64,000 nucleotides of DNA from Pseudomonadota bacterium (GTDB lineage: Bacteria > Pseudomonadota > Gammaproteobacteria > Acidiferrobacterales > UBA6901). Below the pieces are notes generated by a model. It was not told the DNA's origin, searched no databases, and saw only the letters and a list, made by a program, of their open reading frames with translations. Made by a program: the position numbers and the translations under genes. Below, piece by piece: positions 53,564 to 60,187 of this stretch. Location: positions 17,623 through 81,622 of the forward strand of contig JAKASJ010000015.1 of NCBI GenBank assembly GCA_021819085.1, written 5' to 3'. The stretch's first letter is position 1, and each line of letters opens with the position of its first letter.

Positions 53564-53674
53564 AAGGTTTCCCCCTTTATTTTCAGAGTTTCACAGCAAA
53601 ACCAACGGTCAGGATTTCGATCGCCATCGGGCGCTGGCATGGGTACCGAGGCACTTATGCAGCTGATGCCGCGG

Positions 53675-54358
53675 TCAACGCTCGGCTCCTTTCACCTCAT
53701 CGACATCCTTGTGCGGAATGAACAACCCGCACCCGAGCAGACGCGCCGGCCCCAGACCGCACTGCTGAAGCCGCACCGATTCCTCAACCGTCAGGTCGGC
53801 CAGCATCAGGCTGCGCGTGCGCACTCCTCCCTGCGGCGTGGCAATCGTCTTCTCCATGCCGCACAACGCCTTTTTCGGGTGTATGTCCATGTCACCGAGC
53901 CGCTTCACCATCGCGGCCAGAAACGCCTGCTCGTCGGCCTCCGCGCCGATGACGACATGACGTGCGAAGATGGTGGTGATCGGGCTGAGCAGGCGTACCG
54001 TGCTGTCACCGACCGAAAGCCGATGTCCGGCTATCTCGACGACTCTGCCGTTCAGAGCCCCGGCGTCATCAAGGCGATGCCGGGGCAGACGCAGGGTCAG
54101 TTTCGTGCGGCGCGACAGGTACAGCAGGTCATCGGGATTTTCCGGACGCATCCAGCCGTTGCCTGATTCGGCACCATGCACCGGATGGATGCCGGCGCTC
54201 TCTTCGTCCGCGAGCCACGGCAGTGCCTCCTGCAGGGCGTGGCGCAGGGCGTGCGCATGATCTACCGGCAGACAGCGGCAAGAAATCGCGTACGCCACGT
54301 CCACGACGTCGTCGGTAATACGGAAACTCTCGGCCGGATTGTGTTCGCTCCAATACAT
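53675..54358 (-). CDS. Cas6/Cmx6-like (MYXAN-type) RAMP-fold protein, orphan
   Basis: FRITDDVVDVAYAISCRCLPVDHAHALRHAL, GIHPVHGAESGNGWMRP, LYLSRRTKLTLRLP, ESVRLQQCGLGPARLLGCGLFIPHK (GxGx5GxG G-rich loop). Confidence 0.75.
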   Translation of the reverse strand: MYWSEHNPAESFRITDDVVDVAYAISCRCLPVDHAHALRHALQEALPWLADEESAGIHPVHGAESGNGWMRPENPDDLLYLSRRTKLTLRLPRHRLDDAGALNGRVVEIAGHRLSVGDSTVRLLSPITTIFARHVVIGAEADEQAFLAAMVKRLGDMDIHPKKALCGMEKTIATPQGGVRTRSLMLADLTVEESVRLQQCGLGPARLLGCGLFIPHKDVDEVKGAER

Positions 54359-54361
54359 GGT

Positions 54362-55078
54362 TCAGTGAACAGGAAGCTTTTTCTGCAGTTCCTCGCGATC
54401 GATCCACCACTCGTCCTGCACCAGTACATCGACGACATTGCGCATCCGCGGCAGGAACAGGGCCGGATCATTCAGCTCCAGGCGCCGGAACCAGGCATCG
54501 AAGGCCTGCTGGTCGTCGACGTCGCTGTGACGCCGTGCCACGGTAGCGAGCATCTGGTTGGTGTAGAATTCGAGGTCCTCGCGCTGCCGGTCCTGCGCGC
54601 GCATGTCAACCAGATAGCGCGCCACCACGGCCGCCACTGCAGCACCATCGGAATCAGGTGGCGTCTCGTCGATCACATGCTGAAGCATCGCTACCGACAA
54701 CTCCGGATCCATCGGGAAGGTGATGGTCAACCACAGCCCCTGCCCGAGCGCCGCCAGGGATTCCGGCCGGTCGGCCTGGAACATGACATCACAGGCCTGG
54801 ACCGCTCCTTCCCAGGACTCCGCCGATGCGTACAGGTCAAAGGCGGCGCGGCCCCTTTCCCAGGCCTCCTCGCCCCGGCCGAGTTCCACCAGCAGGCGCC
54901 CCGCGTCGAGCAGCAGATCGGCACGGGCGAGCACGTCAACGTCGTTCGCCTTCAGCGTCCGCAATCGTTCAAGGACCTCGCTCAGGCGTTGCTCTACCAG
55001 CAGCATCGAACCCAGCGTGTCTTCGCTGCCGTCGGCGTCCATGACGCCCATTTGATCCTTCAGATATTTCATCCGCAC
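54362..55078 (-). CDS. hypothetical helical (TPR-like) protein
   Basis: 238-aa ORF, 4-bp gap to the Cas6-like gene; Ala/Leu-rich helical repeats. Confidence 0.75.
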   Translation of the reverse strand: MRMKYLKDQMGVMDADGSEDTLGSMLLVEQRLSEVLERLRTLKANDVDVLARADLLLDAGRLLVELGRGEEAWERGRAAFDLYASAESWEGAVQACDVMFQADRPESLAALGQGLWLTITFPMDPELSVAMLQHVIDETPPDSDGAAVAAVVARYLVDMRAQDRQREDLEFYTNQMLATVARRHSDVDDQQAFDAWFRRLELNDPALFLPRMRNVVDVLVQDEWWIDREELQKKLPVH

Positions 55079-55139: not shown

Positions 55140-55340
55140 TCAGCGCGTAACGGAGTTGACGCCGACGAACGCCCCCTCCAACCGGTCTTCCCAGTTTGGA
55201 GGGGTATCGGAAAACTGGGGCTTCACGTCGATCCGGAAGAAAATCTCCCCGCCCTGGGCACGCTGAGATACCACCCCCAGCAGTTCCTCAAAGCTGTCTA
55301 TGTCATGGTTCTGGATCAGAATCTCGCTCAGATAAAGCAT
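55140..55340 (-). CDS. small hypothetical protein (66 aa)
   Basis: MLYLSEILIQNHDIDSFEELLGVVSQRAQGGEIFFRIDVKPQFSDTPPNWEDRLEGAFVGVNSVTR; 10 bp after the TauD-like gene. Confidence 0.65.
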   Translation of the reverse strand: MLYLSEILIQNHDIDSFEELLGVVSQRAQGGEIFFRIDVKPQFSDTPPNWEDRLEGAFVGVNSVTR

Positions 55341-55349
55341 GGTGCCGCC

Positions 55350-56306
55350 TTAACCATAGATCGTGTCGAGTTCGGTACCGGCAACCCGGTCAAAAAACCG
55401 CGCCCGGTACAGCAGTCTACTTTTACTGCGCTCCGCGCAATCTGTAAAGCCGCTGCGATTATGCAGCACGTTGTTGCACAGCAGGCCCTGGCCGGCAGCA
55501 AGCCGGTGGTGGAACACATACGGCGATCCGTCTTCCAAAAGCCGCTCCAGGAACTGCACCGCATCCCGGGTGACGGAATCCTGCTTCCAGACGATGCTGC
55601 GCGTCCTCGCCGTGTAGCGCATGAGCAGGCTCGCACTTCGGCTGCTGACCGCAAACACGGGGCCGCTCTGGACCGCCCGTACCTCGCTGCCGCCTTCGGT
55701 ATTTGCCGGGATGGTCATGGCATCGTCCGCCATGAGGGCGCGCACGTATTGCGGCGCCGCGTCACGCATCAGGATGTAGACGATTTCGTGATCGAGAAGG
55801 GCATTTTCGCCTCCGGTCGCTGCGGGGCGAACACAGTGCAAGACCATCCCTTCGATTGCCCGCGCGGGCGGATTGTAATAGCCGTCGGTATGCCACAGCA
55901 ACCGGCGGTCAGAATACGGTATGTAGCCGCGGCCGGATTTCCCAGGCACAACCTGCAGCGAGCTGATACCGTCGTCATCGGCCAGGGAGTTGGCATCCAG
56001 GCGGTGCATGCCGAACTTTTCGCCAAGCACCCGGGGGATAGCCTTATCCGCTTCTTCGCCTACACGGCTGGCGTAGATCACCATATTGGTTTTGGCGCAC
56101 ACACGCCGCAGCTCGGACTCCTCGGCCCGCGTCAGGGCGCGCGGATCTCCGACTTCGACAATCAGCGCGTCGGCCCTGGCGGGGTAGCCCTCGAGCTTCC
56201 ATGCCCGCCAACGCTGGTAGGCCGCCTCGTCGTCGAATGAAAACGGTCCGGAACGCGTAAGCGTCCCACCATGGCCGGCGCCGGACGGCTGGAATGAATT
56301 ATTCAA
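55350..56306 (-). CDS. TauD/TfdA-family Fe(II)/2OG dioxygenase
   Basis: GYIPYSDRRLLWHTDGYYNPP (HxD), C-terminal LLCNNVLHNRSGFTD...RLLYRARFF. Confidence 0.88.
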   Translation of the reverse strand: MNNSFQPSGAGHGGTLTRSGPFSFDDEAAYQRWRAWKLEGYPARADALIVEVGDPRALTRAEESELRRVCAKTNMVIYASRVGEEADKAIPRVLGEKFGMHRLDANSLADDDGISSLQVVPGKSGRGYIPYSDRRLLWHTDGYYNPPARAIEGMVLHCVRPAATGGENALLDHEIVYILMRDAAPQYVRALMADDAMTIPANTEGGSEVRAVQSGPVFAVSSRSASLLMRYTARTRSIVWKQDSVTRDAVQFLERLLEDGSPYVFHHRLAAGQGLLCNNVLHNRSGFTDCAERSKSRLLYRARFFDRVAGTELDTIYG

Positions 56307-56863
56307 GAGAACTCCAGGGCTCCAAAGCTGGAAACACGGGCCTGCCCCGCAGGCCGCCAGCAGAGATTGGGCGGCATTCTACGAGAAATCCGGGCTTCGC
56401 GGGCATCATTTCTGCAATAAATGGCGACTGCCGGCGACGCTCCTATATCTCTTATGGATAGGTACATAAAATTCGGCACATTATATAAGGTATTGTTTAC
56501 GTGAATAAACCCTCGCGGCCTGCCTTTGTTCAAGGCAGCGATATCCTGTTTCCCTATCCCTATTGGTAGGTAATTCAGGTTCTTTTACCCCCCCAATGAA
56601 GGATGTATTTGAAACAAGCCCCCCAACTAGACTCGCTCCCCGAACTGAGCTTGCGCCATGGAAGCTACGGAATGGCCCATGCTGAACTCAGATCGCGGAT
56701 CGGGCATGCAGGGCATCCGATCCGGGAACCCGGACACCGGAATGCGGCGCCTGCCCGTGAGAGAACCGTTGTCGCGAGACGAGTGAAATGATGCTGAGCC
56801 TGCATCGCAAAAAGCGGGCCAGCCAATGCAAGTCCTTGCCGTACGCACAGGAGGCAGTCAACG

Positions 56864-58159
56864 ATGCAAAACGCACCAAAAAACCCTCAGAAGCATGCGA
56901 CTTTTGTTCCTAAGGAAAAAAAGTCGACCAAGCCATTCCACGAAACGCCGATGCTCGACCAGCTCGAGAGCGGTCCATGGCCCAGTTTCGTTACCGGCCT
57001 CAAGCGGCTAGCTCATGAAAACAACATGATGGTGGATCTGCTGGGGCAGCTGGAACATTCCTATAAGACGCGGACCGGCTACTGGAAGGGTGGGACCGTG
57101 AGCGTATTCGGCTACGGGGGCGGCATCATTCCGCGCTTCTCCGAAGTCGCCAAGATGTTTCCCGAATCGAAGGAATTCCACACGCTCCGCGTCCAGCCGC
57201 CCGCCGGCAACCATTACACGACCAAGATCCTGCGCCAGCTCTCCGATTCCTGGAACAAGTGGGGTTCCGGTCTGATCGCGTTCCATGGACAAACCGGCAA
57301 CATCATGTTCATCGGATCCACGAGCGACAACGTGCAGCACTTTTTCGACGAGATCAACGAATACGGATTCGATCTCGGCGGCGCCGGCCCGTGCGTGCGC
57401 ACGGCGATGTCGTGCGTGGGTGCTGCCCGCTGCGAGCAGTCCAACTGCAACGAGCAGAAAATCCACCGTCTGCTGGTCAACAACTTCATCGATGACATGC
57501 ATCGCCCGGCGCTGCCGTACAAGTTCAAGTTCAAAGTCTCGGGCTGCCCGAACGACTGCATGAACTCGATCCAGCGCTCGGACATGGCGGTAATCGGCAC
57601 CTGGCGTGACGACATGCAGGTGGACCAGAAAGAAGTCCAGGCATTCGTGGCCAGCAGGGGCCGCAAGTATGTCATCGACAACGTCGTCAGCCGCTGCCCC
57701 ACGCAGGCTTTGTCGCTCAACGACGACGATACGCTCGACGTGGACAACCGCAACTGCGTTCGCTGCATGCATTGCATCAACGTCATGACCAAGGCGCTTT
57801 CGCCCGGCAAGGACAAGGGCGTCACCGTCCTGATCGGTGGCAAGCGTACGCTGAAGATCGGCGACACCATGGGCACCGTAATCGTTCCGTTCATGAAACT
57901 CGAGAACGACGACGACTACGAAAAGCTCAAGGAAATCGCCGTCAACACGATCGATTTCTGGGCTGAGAACGGCCTGGAGCACGAGCGCTGCGGCGAGATG
58001 ATAGAGCGCATCGGACTTGTCAATTTCCTCGAAGGCATCGGATTGGATGTCGATCCCAACATGATCAACCATCCCCGTACGATCTCGTACATCCGCACGG
58101 ACGAGTGGGACAAGGAAGCTGAAAAGTGGTTCGAACGCAAGAAACAGGCAGCCGGCTGA
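56864..58159 (+). CDS. dsrA: dissimilatory (reverse-type) sulfite reductase alpha subunit
   Basis: TVSVFGYGGGIIPRFSE, CVGAARCEQSNCNEQ, KVSGCPNDCMNSIQRSD, ferredoxin CVRCMHCINVM. Confidence 0.97.
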   Translation: MQNAPKNPQKHATFVPKEKKSTKPFHETPMLDQLESGPWPSFVTGLKRLAHENNMMVDLLGQLEHSYKTRTGYWKGGTVSVFGYGGGIIPRFSEVAKMFPESKEFHTLRVQPPAGNHYTTKILRQLSDSWNKWGSGLIAFHGQTGNIMFIGSTSDNVQHFFDEINEYGFDLGGAGPCVRTAMSCVGAARCEQSNCNEQKIHRLLVNNFIDDMHRPALPYKFKFKVSGCPNDCMNSIQRSDMAVIGTWRDDMQVDQKEVQAFVASRGRKYVIDNVVSRCPTQALSLNDDDTLDVDNRNCVRCMHCINVMTKALSPGKDKGVTVLIGGKRTLKIGDTMGTVIVPFMKLENDDDYEKLKEIAVNTIDFWAENGLEHERCGEMIERIGLVNFLEGIGLDVDPNMINHPRTISYIRTDEWDKEAEKWFERKKQAAG

Positions 58160-58242: not shown

Positions 58243-59322
58243 ATGGCTGAACAGGCCGCAATGCGTCAACCGATTGAAAGCGGATGCCCGGACGGGTTCC
58301 AGTACATGCATCCGCTCATGATCAAGAACTACGGCAACTGGAAATATCACGATCGTCCGCGCCCCGGCGTCCTGCACCACGTGGCGCACGGCGGCGACGA
58401 GATCTGGACGGTGCGCGCCGGCACCCAGCGCCAGCTCGGGCCTTACGAGATCAATCTGCTGTGTGACATCATCGACAAGTATGCGGACGGCTACGTACGC
58501 TTCACCATCCGCAGCAATCTCGAAATCATGGTCGACAAGCTCGAAAAGGTTGAGCCGCTGATCCAGGCGCTGACCGATGCCGGCTATCCGGTCGGCGGCA
58601 CCGGCAACTCGGTGACCATGATTTCCCACACCCAGGGCTGGCTGCACTGTGATATTCCCGGCACCGATGCCTCGGGGGTGGTGAAGTCGCTGATGGACGA
58701 GCTCTATGAAGAGTTCATCCACGAGGAAATGCCGAACCGGGTGCATATCACGACCTCGTGCTGCCAGATCAACTGCGGCGGCCAGGGCGATATCGCCATC
58801 AACATCCAGCACACCAAGCCGCCGAAGATCAATCACGATCTCGTGGCCAACATCTGCGAACGGCCCTCGGTGGTGGCACGCTGTCCGGTGGCGGCCATCC
58901 GCCCGGCGATGGTCAACGGCAAGCCCTCGCTCGAAGTCGATGAGAAGAAGTGCATCTGCTGCGGGGCCTGCTATCCGCCCTGCCCGCCGATGCAGATCAA
59001 CGACCCGGAGCATTCGAAGATCGCGATCTGGGTGGGCGGCAAGAACTCCAACGCCCGCTCCAAGCCGATGTTCCACAAGCTCGTGGCGGCCGGCATTCCC
59101 AACAACCCGCCACGCTGGCCCGAGGCCGCGGCGATCGTGAAGAATATCCTGCGCGTCTACAAGGAAGACGCCAAGGACTGGGAGCGAATGGGTGAGTGGG
59201 TGGAGCGCATCGGCTGGCCGCGCTTCTTCGAGCTGACCGGTCTGCCGTTCACGAAATTCCACATCGACAACTGGCGTGGCTCGCGTGCAAGTCTGAATTC
59301 GTCGACCCATATCCGCTTCTAG
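58243..59322 (+). CDS. dsrB: dissimilatory (reverse-type) sulfite reductase beta subunit
   Basis: GTGNSVTMISHTQGWLHCDIP, CCQINCGGQGDIAINIQHT, CICCGACYPPCPPM. Confidence 0.97.
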   Translation: MAEQAAMRQPIESGCPDGFQYMHPLMIKNYGNWKYHDRPRPGVLHHVAHGGDEIWTVRAGTQRQLGPYEINLLCDIIDKYADGYVRFTIRSNLEIMVDKLEKVEPLIQALTDAGYPVGGTGNSVTMISHTQGWLHCDIPGTDASGVVKSLMDELYEEFIHEEMPNRVHITTSCCQINCGGQGDIAINIQHTKPPKINHDLVANICERPSVVARCPVAAIRPAMVNGKPSLEVDEKKCICCGACYPPCPPMQINDPEHSKIAIWVGGKNSNARSKPMFHKLVAAGIPNNPPRWPEAAAIVKNILRVYKEDAKDWERMGEWVERIGWPRFFELTGLPFTKFHIDNWRGSRASLNSSTHIRF

Positions 59323-59455: not shown

Positions 59456-59785
59456 CCCTGACCGACATTCTGGTGCGGGACCTGGTCGCGGGCCCCGCAG
59501 TTTCGTGCGTCTGCGTCGGCTTCCGCTTGCAATCACCCAGATGCCGACCGTCGTGGCGACGAAACCGCGGAATCGGGCGCCGAGCGGTGAATCTCCCGAC
59601 TACATCTGTTCTCAAACTCCCATAAAATCGTATCGGACAAAGAGCAAGCGCGGGCGGGGCGTGTTCATGCCTCCGACGGCCGATGTTCCAGGGGATGCAG
59701 ACCTGTGAAAGCCGGTATCTCTGTCTTAATGCGCCGCGCGCGGCGTGCGAACAGCAGTAAGCAATAGTGCATGGAGGTGTGCCTG

Positions 59786-60187
59786 ATGAAAAGGAATGCG
59801 AGCTACGAGCGGTTCGGCAGACGCGACGATGACGGTGGAAACTGGTTGGCGCGCATCGCCGGAGGTGCAGGCAGACCGGACCAGCGCCGCAGCCAGCGCA
59901 GGTCCATTACCATGGAAGTCACGCTCGGCCAGTGTCTGACCTGTTTCGGAAAGTGGACGATCCGTAACCTGAGTCTGCACGGGGCATTCCTCGTGGGGGC
60001 ACTGGAACCGGTGCCGGTCGGCACACTTCTGGATGTCGCTTTCCGCCACGCGCCCAGGGGTGTGCCGGTCATGCGTTACGTGGCGGCACGTGTTGTCCGG
60101 GTGGAATCGGAAGGTTTGGCGCTCAATTTCAGCAGATACGGCAAGGTGGTTTATACAGACCTTGTGGCGTTGCTGTGCCCGATGTAG
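59786..60187 (+). CDS. PilZ domain protein
   Basis: RRSQRRSITMEV...IRNLSLHGAFLVGALEPVPVGT...; GGAGGTG RBS ahead of ATG 59786. Confidence 0.82.
   Translation: MKRNASYERFGRRDDDGGNWLARIAGGAGRPDQRRSQRRSITMEVTLGQCLTCFGKWTIRNLSLHGAFLVGALEPVPVGTLLDVAFRHAPRGVPVMRYVAARVVRVESEGLALNFSRYGKVVYTDLVALLCPM

Follow-up and report, generated by a model that had tools for sequence, protein, structure and literature searches.

A Cas6-family protein encoded at the reverse dsr locus of Gammaproteobacteria, with a possible role in RNA processing

What does a Cas6-type protein do beside the genes of a reverse dissimilatory sulfite reductase? The window, that is, the whole 64 kb stretch of DNA analysed here, carries at 53675..54358 (minus strand) a gene with an ATG start for a 227-aa Cas6/Cmx6-like RAMP protein (PF09559, TIGR02807), hereafter the cas6-like gene. 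A first-pass annotation had suggested that a Cas6-fold RNase or RNA-binding protein was recruited to sulfur oxidation, or else that the family was wrongly labelled as CRISPR-associated.

We compared the protein with family models and with known structures. It matched Pfam PF09559 Cas6 at 218 bits (cut-off 26.7), NCBIfam TIGR02807 cas6_cmx6 at 134 bits (cut-off 98.85) and the PADLOC Cas6 model at 209 bits, the Pfam and NCBIfam matches being full-length and above the curated cut-offs. By phmmer, its sole significant sequence relative in the PDB was 8fcj_B, the Cas6 of a type I-B CAST (E=2e-9). The AlphaFold model (pLDDT 88.7, pTM 0.85) displayed the tandem ferredoxin-like (RAMP) fold with a G-rich loop, and its best structural match was again 8fcj_B (E 1.8e-15, TM 0.78/0.81), followed by other Cas6 proteins; the PDB matches were 8fcj_B, 5yi6, 3i4h and 3pkm. 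These results confirmed the Cas6/RAMP assignment of the first-pass annotation: two of the checks that it had named, an HMM search against TIGR02807/Cas6 and a structural comparison with Cas6 folds, gave strong similarity and not the refuting outcome, and all the blocks that it had quoted, including the G-rich loop GLGPARLLGCG and LFIPHK, are present. The source genome has one PF09559 protein, and the genus-level orthologues of its gene are under purifying selection (dN/dS 0.07-0.15).

The gene belongs to an operon on the minus strand, in the order tauD-like, 66-aa, TPR-like, cas6-like and DsrC paralogue, with dsrAB divergent from it. The tauD-like gene (55350..56306) encodes a TauD/TfdA-family (PF02668) Fe(II)/2-oxoglutarate dioxygenase that meets the family criterion, with the iron ligands HxD (H139, D141) and H282 and the 2-oxoglutarate residues R297/R301 conserved, and that has no sequence relative in the PDB. 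The small conserved 66-aa protein (55140..55340) was found in 52 of 61 genomes with the cas6-like gene and in none of 84 without it, among 145 relatives. The 238-aa TPR-like protein (54362..55078) is all-helical and of no known family, gave no significant structural relative, and was detected at 41 of 60 loci. Its gene ends 3 nt before the start of the cas6-like gene, a gap previously given as 4 bp; the reported closeness to a DsrC paralogue and to dsrAB was accurate, the former starting 111 nt downstream of the cas6-like gene and dsrA starting 2.5 kb away on the opposite strand. On the plus strand, dsrA, for the alpha subunit of the reverse dissimilatory sulfite reductase, occupies 56864..58159 and dsrB 58243..59322.

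The DsrC-family paralogue (PF04358; 53222..53563, minus strand) has DsrC itself (1yx3) as its best PDB relative. Where DsrC has its Cys-containing end, the C-terminal arm of this protein and its orthologues carries a terminal RKGGY that is nearly invariant. It therefore does not meet the criterion for a DsrC sulfur carrier, namely C-terminal cysteines on a mobile arm, and meets that for a DsrC-family sequence without them; it may be of the Cys-less RspA type, and any regulatory role remains putative.

Several further observations concern the surroundings. No dsrE/F/H/C-like ORF was recognised between dsrB and the contig end (59323-64000), and most relatives have dsrEFHCMK after dsrB; an ORF at 59771-60187 looks PilZ-like by eye. 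A second dsrA of the source genome (G000:C3:415-1602, L188), about 71% identical, has no adjoining cas6-like operon, and many relatives also have two dsrA copies.

To describe the locus across genomes, we searched with the locus proteins by tblastn in stretches of up to 20 kb from 60 genomes; several of these stretches stop at contig ends. The gene order was nearly everywhere the same, down to about 36% identity, and dsrA and dsrB were found in 52 of the 60 stretches. Among the 145 relatives, the cas6-like protein was present in 61, a strong dsrA in 72 and both in 59, so that dsrA occurred in 59/61 genomes with the gene versus 13/84 without it (Fisher p=4e-25). With one genome per family the figures were 27/28 versus 2/60 (table 27/1/2/58; p=3e-19). 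An even sample of the class (n=369 genomes) contained PF09559 in 118, dsrA in 117 and both in 110 (Fisher p=1.5e-74). The eight PF09559 genomes of this sample without a detected dsrA have their operon partners, and their loci break off where dsrA would be expected or close to it; these apparent exceptions, including G123 (locus L081), are assembly breaks. All five PF09559 proteins in a phylum-wide sample (n=399 genomes) adjoin dsrAB, and in four more distant genomes of that sample the cas6-like and DsrC paralogue genes are immediate neighbours of dsrA, and tauD lies on the far side. The protein has at least 582 relatives in genomes of named species, the best 80 of which include Thiocystis, Allochromatium, Marithrix, Thioploca, Thiohalobacter, Thiogranum and Betaproteobacteria; of these 80 loci, 78 have one or more partner genes, and such genes also occurred at 28 of 29 further short loci. 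Small genomes of 1.0-1.5 Mb (94-100% completeness) keep the gene (G095, G555, G587, G694, G724, G760, G785), and two of them, G555 and G760, retain cas6 and dsrA far apart on one contig. Distances between the cas6-like proteins track those between the DsrA proteins (Mantel r=0.85). Near-perfect co-occurrence and a conserved gene order tie the cas6-like gene to dsrAB, and the homologues sampled in Pseudomonadota, whose linkage the first-pass annotation had proposed to survey, lie at dsr loci and none in a cas locus, so that its second refuting outcome, homologues mostly inside CRISPR-cas loci, did not occur either. Some genomes, mostly of one family (f4), have dsrAB but lack the gene, which is thus not absolutely required for Dsr. 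Separately, no relatives were found in viral contigs, and viral origin or carriage was rejected.

We next consider the residues on which RNA cleavage would depend. In the AlphaFold model, H34 lies after the first strand, at the start of helix 1, and the G-rich loop (G201-G211) is followed by H216-K217. In Cas6 proteins, the catalytic histidine follows the first strand or falls within helix 1 (PMC3652601, PMC3150331). H34 is about 97% conserved among members and is common to the dsr-linked proteins and the CRISPR-linked cyanobacterial Cas6; its catalytic role is inferred from its position. More than 90% of members keep H34, along with the G-rich loop and a number of basic residues. It is replaced by Asn in L079 and by Tyr in L099, and because it is absent from a few members, as in 8fcj, cleavage by the protein is not certain. 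In 45 sequences, P47, R84, R90, L102, E143, G167, G203, G209, G211 and K217 are invariant. Compared with CRISPR Cas6/Cmx6 proteins (the type I-B Cas6b of Synechocystis PCC 6714 and the CAST Cas6 8fcj), the protein is alike in family match, fold, G-rich loop and the His after the first strand, except that 8fcj has Asn there, but it has a shorter segment after residue 163 and adds an N-terminal MYW, an ESGNGWxRP insertion and a PHK end. R84, E143, H58, the insertion and the PHK end set the dsr clade apart from the aligned CRISPR-linked cyanobacterial sequences, with MYW as an extra conserved feature; H58 also occurs in 8fcj, and beta-type members lack the insertion.

The same residues bear on a reading without RNA cleavage, in which a non-catalytic RAMP scaffold, an RNA- or protein-binding module, would assemble or regulate Dsr proteins, for example by docking the Cys-less DsrC paralogue. 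The conserved residues of the dsr clade that lie outside the Cas6 core (MYW, ESGNGWxRP, R84, E143 and the PHK end) fit such a module, as do the occasional loss of H34, also seen in 8fcj, and the TPR-like and DsrC-like partners, which hint at protein-protein contacts; Cas6 enzymes are, moreover, slow and chaperone-like (PMC3652601). However, the wide retention of H34, the G-rich loop and the basic residues speaks against it, and we consider this explanation unlikely, though it deserves to be kept in mind.

A further alternative is a helper role in RNA modification: bound to a stable RNA, such as tRNA, the protein would take part, alongside the dioxygenase and the DsrC/TusE-like protein, in a modification tied to sulfur flux. 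TusE is part of the tRNA 2-thiouridine relay and belongs, by family match, to the DsrC family, and the dioxygenase retains its iron and 2-oxoglutarate ligands. Nevertheless, the DsrC paralogue lacks a C-terminal cysteine that could carry sulfur, tauD stands apart from cas6 in the beta-type order, and the operon contains no modification enzyme of any known RNA pathway, which leaves this explanation with little to recommend it.

The relation to CRISPR systems was assessed in the window, the source genome and its relatives. No direct-repeat array was found in the 64 kb, the cas1 of the source genome lies on another contig only, and PF01905 was absent, which agrees with the earlier statement that the window holds neither an array nor a cas gene (other cas families were not scanned). 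PF01905 is the cas7 family that accompanies cmx6 in a type I-B locus, where a Cst2/DevR cas7 is named; it was detected in 0/145 relatives, and two control genomes were positive. Likewise, cas1 was not associated with the cas6-like gene (15/61 genomes with it versus 22/84 without, p=0.85). The source genome has a CRISPR of its own on another contig (L187, G000:C38), with the 29-nt repeat CGGTTCATCCCCACGCGCGTGGGGAACAC at 61-nt spacing, and the sequence there reads as a putative type I-E system with its own Cas6e. The idea that the protein acts in trans, maturing the crRNAs of a CRISPR located elsewhere in the genome, to which its Cas6 family membership and the array in the host genome lend some support, was rejected as barely tenable, given the apparent type I-E array with its own Cas6e (arrays were not surveyed genome-wide), the lack of type I-B cas7 (PF01905) in every relative tested, the missing link to cas1, and synteny and co-occurrence that are with dsr.

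The cas6-like gene thus fails the criterion that a CRISPR array and cas genes be linked to it, and shows dsr synteny instead. The cas-linked PF09559 proteins that we found are encoded on cyanobacterial plasmids, beside cas3 and cas8, and form a separate clade on a long branch (support 0.99, FastTree); unlike CRISPR Cas6/Cmx6, the dsr-linked gene has no array and no cas7, cas8 or cas5 partner. For the proteobacterial clade, this supports the suggestion that the family had been wrongly labelled as CRISPR-associated. Because it matches the model "type I-MYXAN CRISPR-associated protein Cas6/Cmx6", the protein would be scored as CRISPR by automatic surveys. As a side observation, cmx6 on a Gloeobacter plasmid (L183, 3974-4765) forms an operon with a PAPS-reductase-family gene, with no cas3 or cas8 listed, a pairing that presumably resembles type IV-B with a CysH-like gene.

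Returning to a Cas6-type protein that acts on RNA of the dsr locus, we looked for a substrate. No Rfam family reached its gathering score in the window, and the gap between cas6 and the DsrC paralogue gene (dsrC2; median 82 nt) holds no shared or universal hairpin. A hairpin in the dsrA leader (56793..56823, plus strand), which lies 40-70 nt ahead of the dsrA start codon, covaries in five congeneric genomes: it is 98% paired within the genus, three pairs show double compensatory changes, and its covariation score was reached by 0/500 shuffles (with five sequences only, and with shared descent possible). A related family has a similarly placed hairpin, and the dsrA-leader hairpins are lineage-specific. 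Alifold z-scores that stemmed from near-zero shuffle variance were disregarded. Specificity tests were negative: the dsrA-leader structures of loci with the cas6-like gene were not more stable than those of loci without it or of second dsrA copies (p=0.17), and a hairpin at the ribosome site was commoner where the dsrA leader had no cas6-like gene beside it. The hairpin is an unproven candidate target, a lead and not a result.

The divergent intergenic region (56307..56863) contains conserved blocks, namely two dyads on the plus strand, TATCTCTTATGGATAGG at 56446 (block 56442-56462) and CCTATCCCTATTGGT at 56553 (block 56553-56570), and a TAGACT -10-like block. Dyads of the TATCYC-N4-GGGATA type upstream of dsrA are conserved across related genomes, and similar ones occur upstream of the second dsrA copy and at dsr loci without cas6; the strict pattern TATCYC-N4-GGGATA was not enriched. 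They are probably the site of a dsr regulator. The gap before the DsrC paralogue (53564-53674, minus strand) has a TTTGTATYAT block conserved in related genomes, perhaps a separate promoter.

Family, fold, linkage and purifying selection are established, as is the lack of a cognate type I-B effector among the relatives that were tested. Because its gene almost always keeps its place beside dsr in Gammaproteobacteria and no matching CRISPR system was found, the protein probably handles sulfur-linked RNA. The explanation that we favour, while rating it slightly short of an even chance, is that a Cas6-type RNA-binding protein or endoribonuclease has been domesticated and serves reverse-Dsr sulfur oxidation by acting on Dsr-regulon RNA, where RNA binding, cleavage and target are all inferred. 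A distinct Cas6 (RAMP) clade would have left CRISPR immunity and been inherited with the reverse-Dsr locus of Gammaproteobacteria (taken, as in GTDB, to include Betaproteobacteria). By inference, its members would still recognise a short RNA hairpin in the manner of Cas6 and would probably perform metal-independent cleavage through His34. The target may be a dsr or operon mRNA or an RNA encoded at the locus, and the effect may be to set the expression or stoichiometry of Dsr proteins, possibly in cooperation with the Cys-less and perhaps regulatory DsrC paralogue, the TPR-like adaptor and the 2-oxoglutarate dioxygenase. Of the recruitment to sulfur oxidation first proposed, the Cas6 fold (by HMM and model) and the dsr linkage stood, and RNA processing remains inferred. 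The stronger claim, that a dedicated RNA endonuclease domesticated from CRISPR controls a core energy metabolism, hundreds of bacteria relying on its Cas6-type processing of a dsr-linked RNA for reverse-Dsr sulfur oxidation, is possible but doubtful.

Binding of the A. vinosum DsrC protein to DNA upstream of the dsr cluster has been reported (as cited in PMC5944118), and dsr transcript levels vary along the operon (PMC11267869, PMC3397948). Both are compatible with layered control of dsr, and neither singles out the cas6-like protein. Set against the described reverse dsr cluster (dsrABEFHCMKLJOPNRS, Allochromatium vinosum type), the operon is divergent to dsrA and follows dsrA class-wide, yet 0/5 of its genes belong to the described set; the DsrC paralogue, in turn, matches PF04358 like DsrC, TusE and RspA-type proteins but ends without cysteine. 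In the open-access literature we found no Cas6 described at a dsr locus (subscription papers and supplements were outside the scope), and the open-access papers on sulfur oxidisers that name Cas6 with DsrC or dsrA concerned ordinary CRISPR where examined. What is new here is a Cas6-family clade in a non-CRISPR context.

Reverse-Dsr sulfur oxidisers are major organisms in sulfide-rich waters, sediments and animal symbioses. At minimum, matches to TIGR02807/PF09559 in Gammaproteobacteria should no longer count as evidence of CRISPR. If RNA processing proves true, the protein would clearly exemplify the recruitment of a Cas protein to metabolism, and it would offer a direct, testable way into the control of dsr expression.
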